Shown: in pieces, positions 35,198 through 46,044 of the stretch
Layout: every line of letters starts with the position of its first letter
How positions within the stretch are numbered: the first letter of the stretch is position 1
Assembly: GCA_021324735.1 (NCBI GenBank)
Contig: JAJPIO010000009.1
Location: 310,001-374,000, forward strand
Source of the DNA: Bacteroidota bacterium
Lineage (GTDB): Bacteria; Bacteroidota; Ignavibacteria; Palsa-1295
Length of the DNA: 64,000 nucleotides
Direction: 5' to 3'
Notes under the pieces: model-generated
The model's database searches: none
What the model was told of the DNA's origin: nothing
The model's input: the letters and a program-made list of their open reading frames with translations, nothing else
Made by a program: the position numbers and the translations under genes

Positions 35198-35506
35198 ATG
35201 CTGCCAACTTCTTTCGAAGACTTAATTGCGACGAGTGACGTCCCAGTCTTTGTGGATTTTTGGGCGGAGTGGTGTGGTCCGTGCCGAATGATGTCGCCAT
35301 CGGTGAAGCAACTTGCTTCCGAATTTAAAGGAAGGCTTTTGGTAGTAAAGGTCAATGTCGATGATCGGCCACAGATCGCCGCGCAATATGGAATTCAGTC
35401 CATTCCTACCTTAATGGTATTCAAAGCTGGCAAACCAGTTTGGCGTATTGCTGGTGCGATGAATTACGATCAGCTAAGATCGCAAGTGCTGCCGTACCTT
35501 CAGTGA
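35198..35506 (+). CDS. trxA: Thioredoxin
   Basis: A 102-residue cytoplasmic thioredoxin with active site WAEWCGPCR (Cys26, Cys29), VKVNVDDRP, and the cis-proline motif IQSIPTLMVFKAGK. No signal peptide. It is an electron donor for disulphide reduction. The last seven bases overlap the end of the convergent NamZ-like gene. Confidence 0.97.
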   Translation: MLPTSFEDLIATSDVPVFVDFWAEWCGPCRMMSPSVKQLASEFKGRLLVVKVNVDDRPQIAAQYGIQSIPTLMVFKAGKPVWRIAGAMNYDQLRSQVLPYLQ

Positions 35507-36747
35507 TAGAGCAGGAACGGCTCCCGCTCTTTCCGGAAGTTGTTATCATCTTGTTTCCAGGATTCAAAGATCGGGCGCAGGTCTTCGCAGCGCTTCAAAG
35601 AATCGAGCAAGCCGTGCATTCCAGTCACTTTTTCGAACATTGTGTTGACTGATGCCGGAAGAGCATCGAAGCTTGCTCGAAAGGCGGTATCCTTCAGTAA
35701 ATTTTCCAGCAATTGGAATTGAGGTTCATATAGATTGGATACCGAACTTAATGTGGCTGGGAAATCAATGTTTACTCCGTGATAGGTCTTTGTGCCTGCG
35801 CTCGTAGTTGCCGTATAATCTTCTGAAGAGAGAGTGAGAGAAGGCGGAAACGATAATGTTGCAATTCGCAACAGCTCTGAACGTTCGATGAGTGTCGAGC
35901 CAATTCGTGTAAAAGGCCGGTCGCTGCCAACCCCTACCGATAGATTTCCTAATTCGCCGGTTGCACCGAGCATTGCCAGACCCACATCGTTCGGAAACGC
36001 CGGTACATTAGGGCTTGGAGCGATCCAGTTGAGACCTGTTTCCATCCAATACATCGATCGTTTCCAGCCATGCATTGGTATAACCGTGAGGTTGAGTTTA
36101 GCGGCTTTGTTGAACCACCCCTTCGCCTTCGCCATCATTGCGAGTTCTCCGAGTGTCATGCCATGCAAGTAGGGCACCGGTAATACTCCGACAAAGCTTT
36201 TAAGACTGGGATCGAGCACGTTACCTTCGATCCGATCGCCCGAAAGGGGATCTGGCCGGTCGAGCACATAGAACGCAATACCCTGTTCGGCTGCAGCTTC
36301 CATAGCATTCACCATCGTAGAGACGTAGGTGTATGGGCGAACGCCGGCATCCTGAATATCGAAAACAAGCGTATTGATACCGCGAAGCATTGCTTTCGTG
36401 GGCTTTCGTGTCGAGCCATAAAGAGAATAGACGGGGATACCTTGATATTGTTCGGGCGTATCACTTGGTACGCCCGCAGGGCGGGTCCCGAGTATTCCAT
36501 GTTCCGGAGCGAATAACGCGACCAACGTAAACGATCTTTGTCGGATGAATACGTCTGCAGCCAATTCGCCATTGCGCGTGCGGCCAGTTTGATTCGTGAT
36601 AAGGCCAACATGCCTCCCTTTGAGCGGCGCGAAATGTTCATCAATTAAGTTATCGAGCCCGATCGAAACTTGCGCCATTCCGGGGCGCGCAAAAATTATT
36701 GCGGCGATAAAAAGTAGAGCAATAAAAAAGGTGTATCTTCGTTTCAT
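35500..36747 (-). CDS. NamZ-like exo-beta-N-acetylmuramidase (DUF1343)
   Basis: About 415 residues with signal peptide (MKRRYTFFIALLFIAAIIFA). ATG 36747 is chosen because it starts the signal peptide; GGAG lies ten bases before it. An upstream start would run into the divergent GH76 gene. The sequence LKGRHVGLITNQTGRTRNGE and FAPEHGILGTRPAGVPSDT is the hallmark of DUF1343, now known as NamZ, which releases MurNAc from peptidoglycan fragments. The divergent neighbour is a GH76-like hydrolase, and NagB is 30 kb away, so amino-sugar salvage is a reasonable inference. Confidence 0.88.
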   Translation of the reverse strand: MKRRYTFFIALLFIAAIIFARPGMAQVSIGLDNLIDEHFAPLKGRHVGLITNQTGRTRNGELAADVFIRQRSFTLVALFAPEHGILGTRPAGVPSDTPEQYQGIPVYSLYGSTRKPTKAMLRGINTLVFDIQDAGVRPYTYVSTMVNAMEAAAEQGIAFYVLDRPDPLSGDRIEGNVLDPSLKSFVGVLPVPYLHGMTLGELAMMAKAKGWFNKAAKLNLTVIPMHGWKRSMYWMETGLNWIAPSPNVPAFPNDVGLAMLGATGELGNLSVGVGSDRPFTRIGSTLIERSELLRIATLSFPPSLTLSSEDYTATTSAGTKTYHGVNIDFPATLSSVSNLYEPQFQLLENLLKDTAFRASFDALPASVNTMFEKVTGMHGLLDSLKRCEDLRPIFESWKQDDNNFRKEREPFLLYH

Positions 36748-36771
36748 AATATCGTTACTCCGATAAGACAT

Positions 36772-37860
36772 ATGAAGCAAATCTTAATTCCCATCTTAAT
36801 ACTCGTATTTCTGTTCCAAAGCAAAGTCGATGCACAAAAGAAGGTGTGGTCCGACCGGATGATGGCAACGATGGAGTATATGCAGAAGCACATGTGGAAT
36901 GCTTCGACGGGCAATTTTGTGCGCCGTGCCGATCAACCGAACGCCCCCGGAAGTGATGCATGGGGAATTACGATCGTCCTCGATGCTTATGCGTATATGG
37001 TCGAAGACGGCTTTGTAAAGCCGGATGAGCTTAAACGCTATTTTATGTCGTCTTCAGGCTTATATGAAAAGACCGGCGGCGATCATGGTGCCAGGATTCT
37101 TGCGCGTCATGGCGACCAGATCTATGTCGGCGGCGACGACGACCTTCAATGGTGTGCCGCTCTTATACACTGCTATGAAGCGACGAAAGATTCAGAGTAT
37201 TTGAATGCTGCTAAATGGGATTTCAATGCCCTGATCGATATGAATTTCTGGATCGATGGAGCATCGAAAGGTTGGGCTTGGAATTCCGCAGATCGACGAC
37301 CGAATGGTGTCAGCTCAGCGTATGGAGCGCTTGCCGCAGCCCGGCTTTATAAGGCTACGGGTGATAATACGTATAAACAGTGGGTAATTGCTGCTCTTAA
37401 GGCGCTAAACACTCCGCAGGTTGGATTTTTTCCGCGCGATATGATGGTCGCTGCCGACGCCGCCCTTACCACCTACGAACGATCGCACGACGAAACACTT
37501 CTGAGTCGAGCAAAAGAATTGGAATCGAGAGCGGTCGCTGAGGGGATGGTGTTCTTGCATCATGATGGGGAAGGCACCCGAAATCCAACGGACATTGGGG
37601 ATCTCGCCGATGGACTTTATCACTTTAGCGAGGTCACAAAGAAGCCGACGTACAAGGCGCAGGCACAGACGTTTGTCGACTTTTTCGTTGGACATCGCAC
37701 AGTAGCCGACCTTGCTGAGCATGGATTTTACTCTCGTTACGATACTAAAGGTCAGCCGGTGATGAACGGTTCGTATCTTGGCGTTCCACAATCGGTGCCG
37801 TTCCTGCCTGAGGTTGCCGAGATGCTGAAGCTCTTTGCGATCGCGTACAAATACAATTAA
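36772..37860 (+). CDS. Glycoside hydrolase family 76-like secreted protein
   Basis: A 362-residue protein with signal peptide (MKQILIPILILVFLFQSKVDA) and an (alpha/alpha)6-type helical repeat. The motif GGDDDLQWCAALIHCYEATKD matches the GH76 catalytic DDxxW sequence (Asp123-Asp124, Trp127), and further repeat blocks (YGALAAARLYKATGDNTYKQW, TYERSHDETLLSRAKELE) resemble alpha-1,6-mannanase relatives. Divergent from the NamZ-like gene; the starts are 24 bp apart, so they share one regulatory region. The sugar polymer it cuts is not determined. Confidence 0.8.
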   Translation: MKQILIPILILVFLFQSKVDAQKKVWSDRMMATMEYMQKHMWNASTGNFVRRADQPNAPGSDAWGITIVLDAYAYMVEDGFVKPDELKRYFMSSSGLYEKTGGDHGARILARHGDQIYVGGDDDLQWCAALIHCYEATKDSEYLNAAKWDFNALIDMNFWIDGASKGWAWNSADRRPNGVSSAYGALAAARLYKATGDNTYKQWVIAALKALNTPQVGFFPRDMMVAADAALTTYERSHDETLLSRAKELESRAVAEGMVFLHHDGEGTRNPTDIGDLADGLYHFSEVTKKPTYKAQAQTFVDFFVGHRTVADLAEHGFYSRYDTKGQPVMNGSYLGVPQSVPFLPEVAEMLKLFAIAYKYN

Positions 37861-37922: not shown

Positions 37923-38195
37923 ATGAACCGTGTTTTTCACGCCTTGGATGATCCGACGCGTCGCCGGATCCTGGAATTGCTTAAAAAGCGAGATATGGCA
38001 GCGGGTGATATTGCCTCGGAATTCAACATGACAAAACCGAGCATTTCGCACCACCTCGATATTCTCAAGCAGGCTGGGTTAGTCGTGTCCGTTAGGAAAG
38101 GGCAATTTCAGGTCTACTCGCTGAATTTGACCGTCTTGGAAGAGGCGCTGTCATGGCTCATTGGTCTCAATCAAAAATCGAAACGCAAATCTTAA
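37923..38195 (+). CDS. ArsR/SdpR-type winged-helix repressor
   Basis: A 90-residue ArsR-family regulator: LDDPTRRRILELLKKRDMAAGDIASEFNMTKPSISHHLDILKQAGLV with the winged HTH and a wing (RKGQFQVYSL). It lacks the metal-binding Cys motifs and matches the SdpR subgroup, whose partner is the SdpI-like immunity/membrane protein. Here the next gene, six bases downstream, starts with exactly such an SdpI-like domain. A perfect palindrome overlaps the likely promoter. Confidence 0.93.
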   Translation: MNRVFHALDDPTRRRILELLKKRDMAAGDIASEFNMTKPSISHHLDILKQAGLVVSVRKGQFQVYSLNLTVLEEALSWLIGLNQKSKRKS

Positions 38196-38201
38196 GTCGC
38201 C

Positions 38202-40334
38202 ATGTCTCGATTCTTAAAAAATGAGTGGTTGCAACTCATCATTCTCGCCGTTCCCTTCGTCCTTATTGCGATCTTTTGGAATCAAATCCCCGACCGGGTG
38301 CCGATCCACTGGAATTACGAGGGCCATGCCGATAACTTCGGGTCAAAGGCGGTAGGATTATTCATTGTGCCCTTGGTCAATATCGGTGTTGCCGCTCTTT
38401 TGGGAGGTTTGGGTCGAATCGATCCTAAATATCTCAATATGAATGTGCCCGGTGTCGTGCTGCGACCGATCCGCTTGATCGTCACAATATTTCTAACTGC
38501 GTTATTTATTGTGACCACCTTGCCGATGGCAGGAATTCCGATCAACATAGGGGATTCAATGCAGCTCGGCTTACCGGTTCTTCTCTTTTTCATCGGTAAT
38601 TACTTGCAGACGATAAAGCCTAATTATTTTATCGGCGTTCGTACACCATGGACCTTAGAAGATCCGGAAAATTGGCGAAGGACTCACCAGTTTGCTGGCC
38701 GCATTTGGATGGCTGTGTCGGTGGTCTATATTATAGCCGTGCTTCTTCTTCGCTTCGATGTTCCCAAATGGATGTTCTGGTCCTATCTGGGCATCATAGG
38801 TGTTTTGCCGATCGCATTTTCTTTTATTATCTTTCAAAAGGGTAAAAGTACGAAGCTGGATACTCGTTCGCTCGCCATCATTCTCGTCCTGATTCTTTTT
38901 ATGCCACGGTCTTCGTCGGCTCAAGTTAATATGGCGTTGGCACCGTGGCTAACTTCTAATCTTATCCAGTCTGGGCAAAGCAATTTGCGAGCGTCTACCG
39001 ATACTTCTCTTTCGGCTCGCTTGCAAGCGGCGCTTGAAAGCACGTATCAACTAACTCCGTTATACGACAGACATGGTGTTGCTGCAAGCGTTATTGTGCC
39101 GGGTTATCCGCAATGGAGTGGGGCCGCCGGCACAAAAGATGGCCACAATCCGATGTCTGCCTCCTTAAGTTTTGAGATCGGGAGCAGTACCAAGTCGTTC
39201 GTTTCGGCTCTTATCTTCGCTCTTCGTGATGAGGGAAAGCTTTCGCTTAAGGATTCCATTCGTAAGTATTTGCCGCATTATCCGAATGTCGATTCCACAA
39301 TCACAATCCAGCAGCTTCTCAATCACTCGAGTGGTCTATACGATTATTTGAATGACGATCCGAGTACGACGCTTTTGAATGATGCCTATGCGACCGATCC
39401 TTCACACCATTGGACACCAGGCGAAATTCTTTCCGAATTTGTAGGCACTGAAAATTTTAAGCCGGGCAAAGGATACCGGTATTCGAACACCGATTATTTA
39501 CTTCTGGGCGAGATCGCTGATTCCATCGAACATCTACCGGTAAGCGAGCAGATTCATACGCGCTTTCTTGCGCCGTTGGGTCTTACACATACACTCTGTT
39601 CGTGGGATGATACTATTCCCACGAACTTCCCGCATGATTATTCGAATGCGACGGCTCAAATAGCTGCAACCGATTGGTTCGGGGTTGACAAAACGGCGCA
39701 ACTCAGTGAAACGAATGCCGCTGGTGGGATGGTATCTGTACCCGAAGAGCTTGCACGGTGGTCTCAAGCGCTATACACCGGGAAAGTATTATCGAAAACT
39801 TCAACTGCGGCGTTATTAAATCTCTCCAATTTCCATCAGCTCACCAATGGACTTCTCTATGGCCTTGGCGATGTGTTTCTTGGTTACTCGTATGATAACC
39901 AGCCTATCTTCGGGCATCCTGGATCCATGTTAGGTTTTGTCACCTTTATGCTTACCGTGCCTCATGACTCGATCTCAATGGTCGTATATCTCAACTCGCT
40001 TACCGATACGATCATTTGTGCAAATTATGTAAATGCCCTCCTGTGGGAGATCTATCATCCGGCGGCCAATAACGTAGTAGAAGCAAATCAAGCTGTGGTG
40101 TCGTCCATCTGCTATCCAAACCCATTTGGGGATCATCTTACGATTTCGCAAGGCTCGGAACAGGAAGGCGAATTCATATTATACGATGCACTCGGCAGGG
40201 AAGTAAAAAGTGCGCCTGTGTCAGCGTCTAAGCCTTCGTTTGAAATGGATACCCATGATCTCAGAGCTGGAATTTACTATTACGTGTTGCGACGCGGGGC
40301 AAACTACGAAAGAGGCCAATTGGTAAAAAACTAG
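38202..40334 (+). CDS. SdpI-like membrane domain fused to secreted serine hydrolase with T9SS sorting domain
   Basis: A 710-residue single frame with three parts. Residues 1-215 are an SdpI/DUF1648 membrane protein (QIPDRVPIHWNYEGHADNFGS, then IGVRTPWTLEDPENWRRTHQFAGR), normally a complete gene beside SdpR. Residues 219-240 form an internal signal peptide (SLAIILVLILFMPRSSSAQ). Residues 250-620 are a beta-lactamase/serine-hydrolase fold with SxxK at 328-331 (SSTK), YSN at 427-429 and HPG at 572-574. Residues 638-710 are a type A sorting domain (YPNPFGDHLTISQ). No stop separates the parts. The middle signal peptide suggests two former genes joined by loss of a stop; a sequencing error cannot be excluded. 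Confidence 0.8.
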   Translation: MSRFLKNEWLQLIILAVPFVLIAIFWNQIPDRVPIHWNYEGHADNFGSKAVGLFIVPLVNIGVAALLGGLGRIDPKYLNMNVPGVVLRPIRLIVTIFLTALFIVTTLPMAGIPINIGDSMQLGLPVLLFFIGNYLQTIKPNYFIGVRTPWTLEDPENWRRTHQFAGRIWMAVSVVYIIAVLLLRFDVPKWMFWSYLGIIGVLPIAFSFIIFQKGKSTKLDTRSLAIILVLILFMPRSSSAQVNMALAPWLTSNLIQSGQSNLRASTDTSLSARLQAALESTYQLTPLYDRHGVAASVIVPGYPQWSGAAGTKDGHNPMSASLSFEIGSSTKSFVSALIFALRDEGKLSLKDSIRKYLPHYPNVDSTITIQQLLNHSSGLYDYLNDDPSTTLLNDAYATDPSHHWTPGEILSEFVGTENFKPGKGYRYSNTDYLLLGEIADSIEHLPVSEQIHTRFLAPLGLTHTLCSWDDTIPTNFPHDYSNATAQIAATDWFGVDKTAQLSETNAAGGMVSVPEELARWSQALYTGKVLSKTSTAALLNLSNFHQLTNGLLYGLGDVFLGYSYDNQPIFGHPGSMLGFVTFMLTVPHDSISMVVYLNSLTDTIICANYVNALLWEIYHPAANNVVEANQAVVSSICYPNPFGDHLTISQGSEQEGEFILYDALGREVKSAPVSASKPSFEMDTHDLRAGIYYYVLRRGANYERGQLVKN

Positions 40335-40441: not shown

Positions 40442-41410
40442 ATGAAGCAGCTTTGGACCCTTCCTCTTCTGGCAGCCTCCCTCCTCGCATGGGGTTGCAA
40501 CGGTAAAGAGAATACAAATGAGATAACCGCCAGTGGTACGATCGAAGCGATCGATGTGAACGTCGCTGCCAAAGTGCCGGCACAGATCGTCGCATTATAT
40601 GTAGATGAAGGTACTCGCCTCGATTCTGGTAGCCTGATCGCGAAACAGGACCGTAGTGCACTCGATATTCAATTGAGGCAAGCGCAGGCGGCGCTGGACG
40701 CTGCCCGTTCGCAGCTTACGCTCACCGAGAAAGGGGCTCGCCCGGAAGACATTAAGCAGGCAGAAGAAGCCGTCCAACAAGCGGAGACAAGCCGAAAGCT
40801 TGCGGCAGATGATTACGAGCGAGTCCGTAATCTTGTGGCTGGCGGTGCTGCAACAAAACAACAGCTCGATCAGGCTGAAACTCAATTTAAAGTCGCACAA
40901 AGCCAATTGGCGCAGGCCGAACAAAATGCTGCCAAGGCAAAACATCTTTCACGACCGGAAGAGATAAGCGCTGCTGCAGCTCACGTGCAGCAATTAGAAG
41001 CTGTTCGTGATGCAGTTCAAAAGACCATTGACGATTCTTATATCATTTCCCCAGTAAAAGGAATTGTCACACATAAAGTCGCGGAGCAAGGGGAATTGGT
41101 CGCACAGGGAGCTACGGTCGCCACCGTGACCGATCTCTCCAGCGTCTATTTAATGATCTACGTGACCGAAGAAGAGCTGCCTCACGTAAAGCTTGGTGAA
41201 AAGGTTGATGTAAAAGTCGACGGATTACCCAATAAGACCTTTACCGGTACCGTTACCTATATCTCGCCCGAAGCCGAGTTTACACCAAAGAATATACAGA
41301 CTAAAGACGATCGTGTTAAGCTCGTCTTCGGTGTAAAAGTGGAAATCCCAAATCCGACTGGAGAATTGAAAAAAGGTTTGCCCGCGGATGCGACGGTCCA
41401 TCTTCGATAA
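40442..41410 (+). CDS. HlyD-family adaptor lipoprotein (YbhG-like)
   Basis: A 322-residue membrane-fusion protein with a lipoprotein signal (LLAASLLAWGC, Cys19). It has the lipoyl half-motif (EAIDVNVAAKVPAQIVALYVDEG), a long coiled coil (residues about 75-175), and the closing SYIISPVKGIVTHKVAEQGE motif. It heads the ABC exporter operon and would link the two ABC ATPase/permease pairs to an outer-membrane channel. No channel gene lies nearby. Confidence 0.93.
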   Translation: MKQLWTLPLLAASLLAWGCNGKENTNEITASGTIEAIDVNVAAKVPAQIVALYVDEGTRLDSGSLIAKQDRSALDIQLRQAQAALDAARSQLTLTEKGARPEDIKQAEEAVQQAETSRKLAADDYERVRNLVAGGAATKQQLDQAETQFKVAQSQLAQAEQNAAKAKHLSRPEEISAAAAHVQQLEAVRDAVQKTIDDSYIISPVKGIVTHKVAEQGELVAQGATVATVTDLSSVYLMIYVTEEELPHVKLGEKVDVKVDGLPNKTFTGTVTYISPEAEFTPKNIQTKDDRVKLVFGVKVEIPNPTGELKKGLPADATVHLR

Positions 41411-41414
41411 TACG

Positions 41415-41861
41415 ATGCAGATACGACCTGCAGCCGAGGCCGACGCGGCGGCGTGGCTTGAAATGCGTCGCGATCTTTGGCCAGATTCCGATACCGATCA
41501 CGAGCGTGACGTTATGCGGTATTTTCAAGGCGATCTTCGTGAACCGACAGAAGTACTCGTAGCGGAGTCAGTCGATGGCAGGCTCCTGGGATTTGCAGAG
41601 TTGTTCATTCGAAATAATGTGAACGGGTGCCATTCTGGGAACGTCGCTTATCTCGAAGGTTGGTATGTTAGAGCAGACGCCAGACGGCAGGGAATTGGCC
41701 GCGCCCTCGTCCAGGCGGCAGAAGCTTGGGGACGGCAACAGGGCTGTACCGAGTTTGCATCGGATGTTGAGCTCGACAACGAAGGAAGCATTCGTGCACA
41801 TGAAGCTCTCGGTTTTGAAGAAACGGATCGCGTCGTGTGCTTTCGAAAAGATATTGGGTAA
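41415..41861 (+). CDS. GNAT acetyltransferase, AAC(6')-like
   Basis: A 148-residue GNAT enzyme (start ATG 41415, four bases after the HlyD stop). Its pattern follows aminoglycoside 6'-N-acetyltransferases: RRDLWPDSDTDHERDV, YLEGWYVRADARRQGIGRAL, CTEFASDVELDNEGSIRAHE and ALGFEETDRVVCFRK are close to the motifs of AAC(6')-I enzymes. The acetyl-CoA loop is RRQGIGRAL. It sits inside an exporter operon. Substrate is inferred from motif similarity only; activity on aminoglycosides has to be tested. Confidence 0.85.
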   Translation: MQIRPAAEADAAAWLEMRRDLWPDSDTDHERDVMRYFQGDLREPTEVLVAESVDGRLLGFAELFIRNNVNGCHSGNVAYLEGWYVRADARRQGIGRALVQAAEAWGRQQGCTEFASDVELDNEGSIRAHEALGFEETDRVVCFRKDIG

Positions 41862-41876
41862 GTCTTTGCCGCAATA

Positions 41877-42824
41877 ATGATCGACCCCTCTAACACTGCA
41901 ATCGCTATTAACGGCTTGAAGAAGAGCTTCGAAGAGACCGAAGCGGTACGAGGTGTCAATCTTACCATCTCCAAAGGGGAGATGTTTGGACTAGTTGGTC
42001 CCGATGGTGCGGGAAAGACCACGCTCATTCGTATGCTCTGTGGCATTTTAGTACCAACCGAAGGAAATGCTACGATTCTTGGCTACGATCTGGCAACGGA
42101 GCTTAATAGTATTAAGCCAAAGATCGGCTATCTTTCACAGCGGTTCAGTTTATACCCAGATCTTAGTATCGATGAAAATATCGAGTTCTTCGCGGAGATT
42201 CACGAAGTAAAAGGCTATGAAGCCCGCCGAAATGAGTTGCTCGAGTTTACCAGGCTCACTCCGTTTCGCGATCGTCTTGCCGATAAGCTCTCCGGAGGAA
42301 TGAAGCAGAAACTAGCGCTCGCTGCGACGCTCATTCATAAGCCGGAAATCATTTTTTTAGATGAGCCGACCACCGGCGTTGATCCGGTTTCCCGAAGGGA
42401 ATTTTGGAAGATCCTCTCTTCACTTCTCGAAGAGGGTATCACTATCTTAATGGCCACGCCTTATCTCGATGAAGCAGAACGTTGCTCGCGTGTGGGACTG
42501 ATGAGCAACGGCCAAATCCTTCTGGCCGATACACCGCAGCAGGTCAAACGGCAAATGAAGGGGAGCGTGCTCGAAGTTATTCCTTCCAATTTAAATAAAG
42601 CGACGGATACCTTAAAAAAATATTCGGAAGTCATCGAAGTGCAGACCTTCGGGGATCGCATTAATGTCGTGGTCGAAGGAAATGTAGCAGCGGATACCCT
42701 AACTGGCTGGCTGAGCAAGGCCGGTGTTGAGACGAAAATGATACGCAACATTCAGCCGTCACTTGAAAATGTCTTTATAGCATTGTTGCGTGAACGCTCA
42801 GAAGAGGAGCCTGCTCATGCCTGA
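41877..42824 (+). CDS. ABC exporter ATP-binding protein 1 (YbhF-like)
   Basis: A 315-residue ABC-2 type ATPase with Walker A GPDGAGKTT, Q-loop LSQRFSLYPDLS, signature LSGGMKQKLAL, Walker B IIFLDEPTTGVDP, and a C-terminal regulatory domain typical of drug/ion exporters. Its stop overlaps the start of the second ATPase gene. Together with that gene it corresponds to the two halves of the fused YbhF. Confidence 0.94.
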   Translation: MIDPSNTAIAINGLKKSFEETEAVRGVNLTISKGEMFGLVGPDGAGKTTLIRMLCGILVPTEGNATILGYDLATELNSIKPKIGYLSQRFSLYPDLSIDENIEFFAEIHEVKGYEARRNELLEFTRLTPFRDRLADKLSGGMKQKLALAATLIHKPEIIFLDEPTTGVDPVSRREFWKILSSLLEEGITILMATPYLDEAERCSRVGLMSNGQILLADTPQQVKRQMKGSVLEVIPSNLNKATDTLKKYSEVIEVQTFGDRINVVVEGNVAADTLTGWLSKAGVETKMIRNIQPSLENVFIALLRERSEEEPAHA

Positions 42825-43761
42825 CGTTGCGATCGAAGCCAAAGAACTCACCAAACGCTTCGGCGACTTCATCGCGGTAGACCATATTTCCTTTTCCGTC
42901 AATGGGGGAGAAATATTCGGCTTTCTCGGCGCGAATGGCTCTGGAAAATCGACGACGATCCGCATGCTCTGCGGTTTATTACAATCGAGCGGAGGCTCGG
43001 CAACCGTAGCTGGATTCGACATCAACTCACAAGCTGATAGCGTCAAGGAAAATATCGGCTATATGTCGCAGAAGTTTTCGCTCTACGATGATCTGACGGT
43101 GACAGAGAACATTCGGTTCTGGGGCGGCATCTACGGTCTTTCCGATGAGATGATCGCCAAACGCCAGGCTTGGGCGATCGGTATTGCGGGTCTCGAAGGA
43201 CGAGAAAAAAGTTTACCTCGAGAATTGCCCGGTGGATTCAAGCAACGACTTGCACTCGCGTGTGCGATGCTTCATTCGCCTAAAGTAGTATTCTTAGATG
43301 AGCCAACGGGTGGCGTCGATCCCATTATGCGTCGCCGATTTTGGGATCTCATTCGTCAACTTGCTGAAGAAGGCACTACCGTTTTTGTCACGACTCACTA
43401 TCTCGACGAAGCGGAATATTGCAATCGGATCATGCTGATCCATGCTGGCCGAATGATAGCGGTCGGTACGCCGGAGCAGTTAAAGAAAGAATACATTCGA
43501 ACACCAGTATTAGAAGTGGAGACCGAGCGGATCATCGAAGCGATGGCACTTCTCGATGAAGACGATCGAGTCGAAGAAACGTCGGTCTTTGGTACATTTC
43601 TGCATGTAAGTATAGCCGAACGATACAACGCCGAAAAGGTGATCCGCGAGGTTTTGGGCGCCCATAATATTTCGCCTTCTCGTATCGAGCCGATCGTACC
43701 ATCCTTAGAAGATGTATTCATTCACTTGATCGACCGGCAGGAGGCCGAGCAAAAAAGATGA
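42817..43761 (+). CDS. ABC exporter ATP-binding protein 2 (YbhF-like)
   Basis: A 314-residue ATPase. ATG 42817 is preferred because GAGGAG stands seven bases before it, and it overlaps the previous stop by eight bases. Walker A GANGSGKST, Walker B VVFLDEPTGGVDP; the signature is the variant LPGGFKQRLAL. It pairs with the preceding ATPase and the two permeases that follow (the next ATG overlaps this stop as ATGA). Confidence 0.94.
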   Translation: MPDVAIEAKELTKRFGDFIAVDHISFSVNGGEIFGFLGANGSGKSTTIRMLCGLLQSSGGSATVAGFDINSQADSVKENIGYMSQKFSLYDDLTVTENIRFWGGIYGLSDEMIAKRQAWAIGIAGLEGREKSLPRELPGGFKQRLALACAMLHSPKVVFLDEPTGGVDPIMRRRFWDLIRQLAEEGTTVFVTTHYLDEAEYCNRIMLIHAGRMIAVGTPEQLKKEYIRTPVLEVETERIIEAMALLDEDDRVEETSVFGTFLHVSIAERYNAEKVIREVLGAHNISPSRIEPIVPSLEDVFIHLIDRQEAEQKR

Positions 43762-44900
43762 TATCGGTCCATCGAATACGTCCTATTATTCGGAAGGAAT
43801 TCCGGCAGATCATGCGGGATCGACGCTCGCTCGGTGTGCTGCTCGTGGTGCCTGCCTTTATGCTCATCATGTTTGGTTATGCTCTGAATTATGATGTCCA
43901 GCATATTCCACTTGCGGTCTATGACCAGGATCGCTCGACGATGAGCCGTGAGTTCATTCAACAGTTCATCCATTCCGAGTATTTTGATTTTGCTGGCTCG
44001 ATCTCGAGCGAACAGGAGATCGATACGGTCATTCCTTCCCAGAAAGCGCGCGTAGTCGTGGTTATTCCACCACGATTCTCGGAAGATTTGCTGGCGAACC
44101 GATCGGTGAGTATACAAGTCCTGGTCGATGGTGCGAATGCTACGACAGCCGCCACAGCCGCTGGTTATCTCGTCGCGATGACGCAGGATTACTCTACGAA
44201 TATTTCGCTGCAGGCATTACAGCGTTTCGGCATGAGCAAACCCACGCTGCCGATCGACTACCGGCCACGAATCTGGTTCAATCCCGAGCTAAAGAGCGCG
44301 AAGTTCATGGTGCCAGGACTTATCGGCTTTATTCTCATGATGAGTACGGTCGTTTCAACTTCCCTTTCCATTGTTCGCGAGCGTGAAAAAGGGACGATAG
44401 AGCAAATCAGTGTCTCGCCGATCCACCCGATGGAATTGCTGGTCGGTAAGACGATGCCGTACGTCCTTATCTCTCTCATCGCAACGGTCCTGATTCTTAT
44501 TACAGGGTACGCATTATTCAATGTGGTCGTGCGTGGGAGTATGCTGCTCCTCTTCCTTGAGACTCTCATCTTCACGTTCTGCGGACTTGGCCTTGGTATG
44601 TGGGTCTCTACAGTCGCTAATAAACAGGACGAAGCATTTCAGCTTGCAACGCTGGTCTCGTTTTTGCCGACCTTTATGCTTTCGGGCTTTGCTTTCCCGA
44701 TCGCCAATATGCCGAAGGTGATCCAATGGATCACGTTTATTAACCCAGCGCGCTATTTTCTATTCATACTTCGCTCGATCATCTTAAAAGGAGTTGGATT
44801 ATCCGCGCTCTGGCAGGAGACACTGTTTATGACTCTCTTTGCTCTCGGCATTACGGCGATCAGTTGGAATAAGATGAGGAAATCCGTTTTTCGAGTATAA
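43758..44900 (+). CDS. ABC-2 type exporter permease 1 (YbhS-like)
   Basis: A 380-residue membrane protein of the ABC2_membrane_3 type: KEFRQIMRDRRSLGVLLVVP start, first helix with FGYALNYDVQ, a large extracytoplasmic domain (residues about 45-175), then five membrane helices with FMLSGFAFPIANMPKVIQWI. Overlaps the ATPase stop (ATGA). Acts as a heterodimer with the next gene. Confidence 0.93.
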   Translation: MISVHRIRPIIRKEFRQIMRDRRSLGVLLVVPAFMLIMFGYALNYDVQHIPLAVYDQDRSTMSREFIQQFIHSEYFDFAGSISSEQEIDTVIPSQKARVVVVIPPRFSEDLLANRSVSIQVLVDGANATTAATAAGYLVAMTQDYSTNISLQALQRFGMSKPTLPIDYRPRIWFNPELKSAKFMVPGLIGFILMMSTVVSTSLSIVREREKGTIEQISVSPIHPMELLVGKTMPYVLISLIATVLILITGYALFNVVVRGSMLLLFLETLIFTFCGLGLGMWVSTVANKQDEAFQLATLVSFLPTFMLSGFAFPIANMPKVIQWITFINPARYFLFILRSIILKGVGLSALWQETLFMTLFALGITAISWNKMRKSVFRV

Positions 44901-44913
44901 GCTCCTAGAGAAG

Positions 44914-46044
44914 ATGAGAACTCTGCTTCACATGCTAAGAAAAGAATTTCTGCAACTGCGCCGCGATCCGCGCATTGTGCAGCTTATTCTTATTGGTCCC
45001 ATCGCGCAGCTTCTTCTGTTTGGCTATGCGATCAACATGGATGTGAATACGGTCCCCGTGGTGGTTTGCGATATGGACCATTCGATAGAGAGTCACGATC
45101 TCATCGCCCGTTTTTCGAATTCCGGTTATTTTCCGATCGTAGGGTATGTCGATAAGCTTTCGGATGTCGATCCCTATATCGATAGAAGTAAAGCCTCTCT
45201 CGCGCTGATCATCCCCGAAAATTTTGGTCGGGATATTAAACGAAATGCAAGTGTACCACTGCCGGTGATCGTAGATGGCTCCGAAAGCAACTCCGCTTCG
45301 GTCGGACTCAATTATGCCGGAGCGATCATTGCGGGATATTCGCAAAATATTTTGGTCCAGAATTTTTCTCGCCGTGGGTTTGGCGGTTTGCACCCTATCC
45401 AAGTGATCCCGGAAGTTCGCGTCTGGTATAATCCAGAACTTAAGAGTAGAAACTTCCTCGTTCCTGGCATTCTCGGTACGCTGCTATTGCAAGCAACAGT
45501 CTTGTTAACGGCGCTTGCGATAGTAAAGGAAAAGGAATCTGGTACCATGGAGCAGCTTATCGTCACGCCGATTAAACCGTACCAGATCATCATTGGGAAG
45601 CTGGCGCCGTTCTTTATTATCGGTGCGATCGATATTGTGCTCGCTATTGCCGGTACCACGATCGTTCTTGGGATTCCCGTTCGCGGCAGCATTTGGCTTC
45701 TTGGCGGACTTTCCCTGCTCTTTATCATGACGACGCTCGGCCTTGGCTTGTTCGTTTCGACCGTCAGTCAAACTCAGCAGCAGGCCATGATGACCACCAT
45801 ATTTTTCCTCATCATGCCGATGAATTTTCTATCGGGCTTCATTTTCCCGATCGAAAACATGCCGAAGATCATCCAATACGTCACGTATCTTTTGCCGTTG
45901 CGCTACTTTTTCGAGATCATCCGGGATGTTTTTTTGCGCGGCGTCGGATTCGATGTTCTGTGGCCTCAGGCGCTTGCCTTATTTATTTTCGGCGTTTGTA
46001 TCTTAACTCTTGCCTCTTTACGGTTCAGGAAGAAACTGGCATAG
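44914..46044 (+). CDS. ABC-2 type exporter permease 2 (YbhR-like)
   Basis: A 376-residue paralogue of the upstream permease: KEFLQLRRDPRIVQLILIGP, FGYAINMDVN, the same extracytoplasmic domain and FLSGFIFPIENMPKIIQYV. It starts 13 bp after the first permease. The pair plus two ATPases and HlyD form a complete inner-membrane exporter of the YbhGFSR type; the exported compound is not known. Confidence 0.93.
   Translation: MRTLLHMLRKEFLQLRRDPRIVQLILIGPIAQLLLFGYAINMDVNTVPVVVCDMDHSIESHDLIARFSNSGYFPIVGYVDKLSDVDPYIDRSKASLALIIPENFGRDIKRNASVPLPVIVDGSESNSASVGLNYAGAIIAGYSQNILVQNFSRRGFGGLHPIQVIPEVRVWYNPELKSRNFLVPGILGTLLLQATVLLTALAIVKEKESGTMEQLIVTPIKPYQIIIGKLAPFFIIGAIDIVLAIAGTTIVLGIPVRGSIWLLGGLSLLFIMTTLGLGLFVSTVSQTQQQAMMTTIFFLIMPMNFLSGFIFPIENMPKIIQYVTYLLPLRYFFEIIRDVFLRGVGFDVLWPQALALFIFGVCILTLASLRFRKKLA

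Follow-up and report, generated by a model that had tools for sequence, protein, structure and literature searches.

The window analysed here is a 64,000-nucleotide stretch of the genome of a Bacteroidota bacterium from the class Ignavibacteria (contig JAJPIO010000009.1, positions 310,001 to 374,000). Within this window, positions 38202-40334 of the forward strand form one continuous reading frame of 710 amino acids, which begins with an ATG 6 nt past the end of an sdpR-like gene and has no internal stop codon (Table 1). According to Pfam, the encoded protein has four domains, all of which exceed the curated cut-offs: (i) DUF1648 (PF07853; residues 13-59, E 1.4e-17, 63.5 bits against a cut-off of 28.7); (ii) SdpI (PF13630; residues 138-206, E 4e-19, 68.9 bits against 28.2); (iii) Beta-lactamase (PF00144; residues 288-601, E 1.1e-44, 153.4 bits against 27); and (iv) Por_Secre_tail (PF18962; residues 638-700, E 8e-8, 33 bits against 27), where TIGR04183 also matched. 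A signal-peptide-like segment is internal (residues 217-240) and not N-terminal. The original prediction that a single frame joins an SdpI/DUF1648 part, an internal signal, a hydrolase and a type IX tail is thus borne out. The fused SdpI is the only SdpI gene found in the source genome, in which no second close copy of the S12 hydrolase was found. A search of plasmid records returned none that spans 80% of the query, and a search of an anti-phage library gave no match.

Table 1. Features of the sdpR-sdpI-hydrolase-exporter locus (positions within the window).
Feature	Position	Strand	Evidence
sdpR-like ArsR autorepressor	37923..38195	+	NCBIfam NF033789 SdpR family, 124 bits, cut-off 100
SdpI part, residues 1-215, DUF1648 + SdpI, six predicted membrane helices	38202..38846	+	Pfam, AlphaFold2, 46-52% identity to separate SdpI of G003 and G004
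Internal signal-peptide-like segment, residues 217-240, starts ACG (Thr217), predicted cut SSSA240|Q	38850..38921	+	Sequence, hydropathy, junction alignment of independent fusions
S12/PF00144 serine hydrolase domain, residues 288-601	39063..40004	+	Pfam, nearest solved chains
Type IX secretion C-terminal sorting domain, residues 636-710	40107..40331	+	PF18962, TIGR04183
HlyD/MFP adaptor gene	40442..41410	+	78% identity to G004 counterpart in synteny, which directly follows sdpI there
AAC(6')-type aminoglycoside acetyltransferase-like gene	41388..41861	+	NF043067, 159.6 bits, cut-off 140
Two DrrA-like ABC ATPase genes and two ABC-2-type permease genes	41877..46044	+	71-79% identity to G004 for three

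The hydrolase part carries S328-S-T-K331, Y427-S-N429 and H572-P-G574, that is, the SxxK, Y/SxN and third (K/H)xG motifs of the S12 family (PF00144). By sequence, its nearest solved chains are a DD-carboxypeptidase (9s7k), an alkaline D-peptidase (4y7p) and a DD-peptidase (1cef), which share with it catalytic-domain similarity as well as the SxxK, YxN and HxG motifs, while AmpC enzymes rank behind. These three enzymes are secreted and, unlike the protein described here, lack an SdpI part. An AmpC class C beta-lactamase was rejected, since the corresponding NCBIfam model reaches 43.7 bits against a cut-off of 415 and HPG stands in place of KTG. The earlier description of the domain as class C beta-lactamase-like therefore holds for the fold, but not for the identity of the enzyme.

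In an AlphaFold2 model, which is a prediction only, the SdpI part forms six long helices within residues 1-215, followed by a low-confidence helix (221-233), a disordered linker to about residue 264, the hydrolase and the tail. Hydropathy places a hydrophobic segment at residues 224-242, which is preceded by the basic stretch KGKSTKLDTR and ends in SSSA|Q, with cleavage predicted after SSSA240. Codon 217 (38850) is ACG, as had been claimed, and the stretch that separates the SdpI homology from the signal helix has no in-frame ATG, GTG or TTG. It had been argued that a polytopic membrane protein tied to a type IX cargo makes little topological sense unless the internal signal is cleaved. However, six SdpI helices are expected to leave the SdpI C-terminus (and N-terminus) in the cytoplasm, so that the internal signal can export the enzyme, cleaved or not. 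Type IX secretion is available to the host, as its genome encodes SprA (SprA_N) and about 150 type IX sorting tails.

The suggestion that two former genes have merged was supported by close relatives, in which split genes were looked for and found: both halves occur separately in the same genus. In G004, the gene order is NamZ, glycosidase-like, SdpR, SdpI, HlyD, ABC, ABC and permease, with 46-79% identity for the pairs. The G004 SdpI is a separate protein of 219 aa with its own stop after FQKSKRA, at the junction point, and the HlyD gene follows 55 nt on. This locus contains neither the hydrolase nor the AAC(6')-like gene, which in the source genome lies between the HlyD and ABC genes. The closest hydrolases are separate, unlinked genes with their own signal peptides, among others those of G006 (57-58%) and G003 (46-47%), both from the same genus. 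Given the synteny with G004 and the unlinked hydrolases of G006 and G003, a hydrolase of this particular family lies between sdpI and the exporter genes, and is fused to sdpI, in the source genome only, among the genomes searched. The simplest reading is a gain of the hydrolase in the source lineage rather than a loss in G004, although it may instead have been lost there. Upstream of the sdpR-like gene, positions 35500-37860 hold a divergent gene pair, a NamZ exo-N-acetylmuramidase gene (35500-36780) and a GH88/GH76-like gene, both of which are conserved beside SdpRI in G004.

Conservation of the same fusion among close relatives was also considered and is ruled out, as it is absent from the other 390 genomes of a class sample of 391, including those of the genus and the family. 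Long frames with PF13630 matches were examined in G034, G617 and G414, and those of G679 and G046, which have weak matches, were left out. In G034, a 656-aa open frame surrounds an SdpI match, but the ORF holding the match has 170 aa and there is no fusion; the G617 frame, with a weak match, is a transporter; and the G414 frame is not an SdpI-hydrolase fusion.

Similar fusions are found in another family of the phylum. The phylum sample gave an SdpI fused to an exported alpha/beta hydrolase in G670, and six genomes belonging to a single other Bacteroidota family carry SdpI::alpha/beta-hydrolase (Hydrolase_4) fusions (L125-L130), five in one genus and one in another. In 19 other loci of this family, SdpI and hydrolase genes stand side by side; the six fused and nineteen unfused loci were chosen as best matches to the fused protein, and their proportion is not a survey. 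In the six fusions, the junction directly follows the SdpI tail (LFRKG, LFKQG, LYRKQ), and next come a run of hydrophobic residues and a site of small residues ending A|Q; this is the junction geometry of the S12 fusion gene. Like that gene, they combine SdpI, an internal signal helix and an exported serine hydrolase, with SdpR nearby; they differ in that the enzyme is an alpha/beta hydrolase and not of the S12 type, and in that no T9SS tail was found in them by Pfam scans. The hydrolase tree of this family favours two fusion events, the single clade being rejected (AU p 0.028), and the SdpI tree, in which branches are long, is compatible with one. With the S12 fusion included, there are two or three independent fusions, involving two unrelated hydrolase folds. 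In three of the nineteen unfused loci (L131, L132, and L133), one TAA and about 24 nt part the SdpI gene from an alpha/beta hydrolase gene that continues in its frame, a short step from fusion.

The two genes are also frequent neighbors. Among 74 loci drawn from the phylum, class and order samples, 39 have a same-strand exported hydrolase downstream of SdpI (usually an alpha/beta hydrolase), whereas a single locus has one upstream, on the other strand. Both sides were searched with one hydrolase profile; it was built from some of the partners, so that the count is not blind. The count took in hydrolases of two kinds (S12 and alpha/beta) and flanks of about 1.46 kb downstream and 1.09 kb upstream; an earlier upstream control (<=300 nt) was too weak, as sdpR occupies that slot, and was recounted over the whole flank. 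By genus, and with a gap of <=300 nt, pairing was seen in 11/16, 6/11 and 2/12 genera of the phylum, class and order samples, respectively. The link between SdpI and a hydrolase is frequent, then, but not universal. Many loci show a 1-4 nt overlap between the two genes. The partners that were examined with Pfam belong to Hydrolase_4 and have a hydrophobic N-terminus, and an SdpR-like gene lies near SdpI in 29 of the 30 phylum-sample loci. What is new here is this recurrent pairing of SdpI with an exported hydrolase across the sampled Bacteroidota, together with the similar fusions elsewhere in the phylum; a literature search, which is weak in that most subscription papers fall outside its coverage, found no paper on SdpI-hydrolase pairing in Bacteroidota. 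Since similar joins arose independently in other Bacteroidota, in which both genes usually adjoin, the fusion appears to be genuine, a merger of partner genes that has occurred repeatedly.

SdpI of B. subtilis is an immunity protein as well as a receptor, which sequesters SdpR when SdpC is present (PMC1626106), and is stated to have six helices (PMC11995493). As at the locus described here, an SdpR-type autorepressor directly precedes a six-helix SdpI in B. subtilis SdpRI (PMC1626106), but no hydrolase is found in the operon or fused to SdpI. The yfhLM operon, which contains an SdpI paralogue, protects against SdpC (PMC8144471) and belongs to the sigma-W regulon of B. subtilis (PMC8144471, PMC3498285). 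It provides a parallel in that an SdpI paralogue is co-transcribed with a second gene and linked to SdpC protection; on the other hand, its genes are separate and under another regulator. YfhM is an alpha/beta hydrolase for which export is not known. For the architecture of the fusion, a counterpart is the FbcH cytochrome b/c1 polyprotein of Bradyrhizobium japonicum, a polytopic membrane protein whose internal signal is cleaved and whose periplasmic domain is freed. Both proteins have a polytopic part and an internal signal before an exported domain (cleavage in the S12 fusion is only predicted), but FbcH belongs to a respiratory complex and its domains are unrelated.

On these grounds, it is considered fairly likely that sdpI has truly merged, in frame, with the gene of a T9SS-exported S12 hydrolase, within an sdpR-sdpI-hydrolase-exporter cluster, and that the signal of the fusion protein is cleaved and its role is in envelope defence. 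The fusion product would insert through the six SdpI helices, with the SdpI tail staying in the cytoplasm, and the hydrolase signal peptide, which is retained, would use the basic tail QKGKSTKLDTR as its n-region. The hydrolase part would cross via Sec, signal peptidase I would cut after SSSA240, and the freed enzyme would pass to the T9SS, so that the outcome would be as from two genes, at one-to-one amounts. SdpI could then serve as a membrane immunity protein and as the sensor that relieves SdpR repression, while the exported hydrolase could attack a membrane- or envelope-active compound or repair the envelope from outside. The reading as an envelope-defence operon draws on the immunity and receptor role of SdpI, on the protection given by yfhLM, and on the neighboring HlyD/ABC exporter and AAC(6')-like genes, which suit a resistance cluster. 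With SdpRI and YfhLM as analogues, the locus is likely to defend the cell against a compound acting on its membrane or envelope, and the fusion protein is probably a two-part envelope immunity unit that is split by signal peptidase.

Cleavage is the step on which another reading differs. If the internal segment were to persist as a seventh helix, the hydrolase would stay anchored beside SdpI on the periplasmic side of the inner membrane, sensing and hydrolysis would be joined in one complex, and the T9SS tail would be a relic. The topology permits this, as a helix added to the six would have its C-terminal side outside, and the six alpha/beta fusions, in which Pfam scans find no such tail, would need no release. 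However, a small-residue cleavage motif ending A|Q is kept in all of the fused proteins and the S12 fusion keeps a tail above cut-off, which is useful only once released; these features favour cleavage, and an uncleaved tether is regarded as unlikely. A peptidoglycan role is likewise improbable: the S12 enzyme would then be linked to the divergent NamZ gene and act as a DD- or muropeptide-directed peptidase or amidase, and its position behind sdpI would be incidental. This would agree with the DD-carboxypeptidases and D-peptidases that are its closest solved relatives by sequence and with the nearby exo-muramidase gene, but the G004 locus has the NamZ and GH genes alongside SdpR and SdpI and lacks the hydrolase, and elsewhere SdpI pairs with unrelated alpha/beta hydrolases.

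The merger itself could also be apparent, if an assembly artefact or a very recent frame change, namely a missing base at the end of sdpI, masked two adjacent genes. A base inserted in codons 213-214 ends SdpI at a TAA and matches the lengths of its relatives, and many single-base insertions near this end yield two overlapping frames. Moreover, the fusion is a singleton, present in one genome of the class sample, so that conservation gives no support, and adjacent separate genes are the rule elsewhere. Yet most insertions leave the hydrolase with only a GTG/TTG start that lies within sdpI, 22-24 codons ahead of the signal helix, and none of 252 single substitutions near the junction restored two proper genes. 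The frame also agrees with the relatives through FQKGK, and another family has fusions of the same geometry in six genomes, of which five belong to one genus. An artefact is regarded as quite improbable, as a simple error would mostly give the hydrolase a poor start.

SdpI-family proteins are common and largely unexplained outside B. subtilis. That an exported hydrolase is a recurrent partner of SdpI, and has repeatedly merged with it, suggests that both act on the same thing, and the pairing makes it possible to test what SdpRI operons do in Bacteroidota. The fusions are, in addition, candidates for naturally occurring processing of an internal signal peptide within a polytopic bacterial protein. 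A more tentative proposal, which is possible though doubtful at present, is that SdpR, SdpI and an exported hydrolase make up a two-part immunity module that is widespread in Bacteroidota and so far undescribed. SdpI would sense and resist a toxin, which the outer enzyme would destroy or modify. At least two lineages would make the two proteins as one polyprotein, which signal peptidase would separate into the membrane receptor and the secreted enzyme, and the enzyme could come from unrelated hydrolase folds.

Two further arrangements were observed among the relatives. In G007, from the family of the source genome, SdpR and SdpI are followed by a different, unfused S12/PF00144 hydrolase (L042, 4041-6347). 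In addition, the same small gene (62% identity) lies in convergent orientation after SdpI in G002 (L040, 5312-5749) and after the unfused hydrolase in G003 (L046, 6263-6703), which hints at an older link between the SdpI and hydrolase loci.
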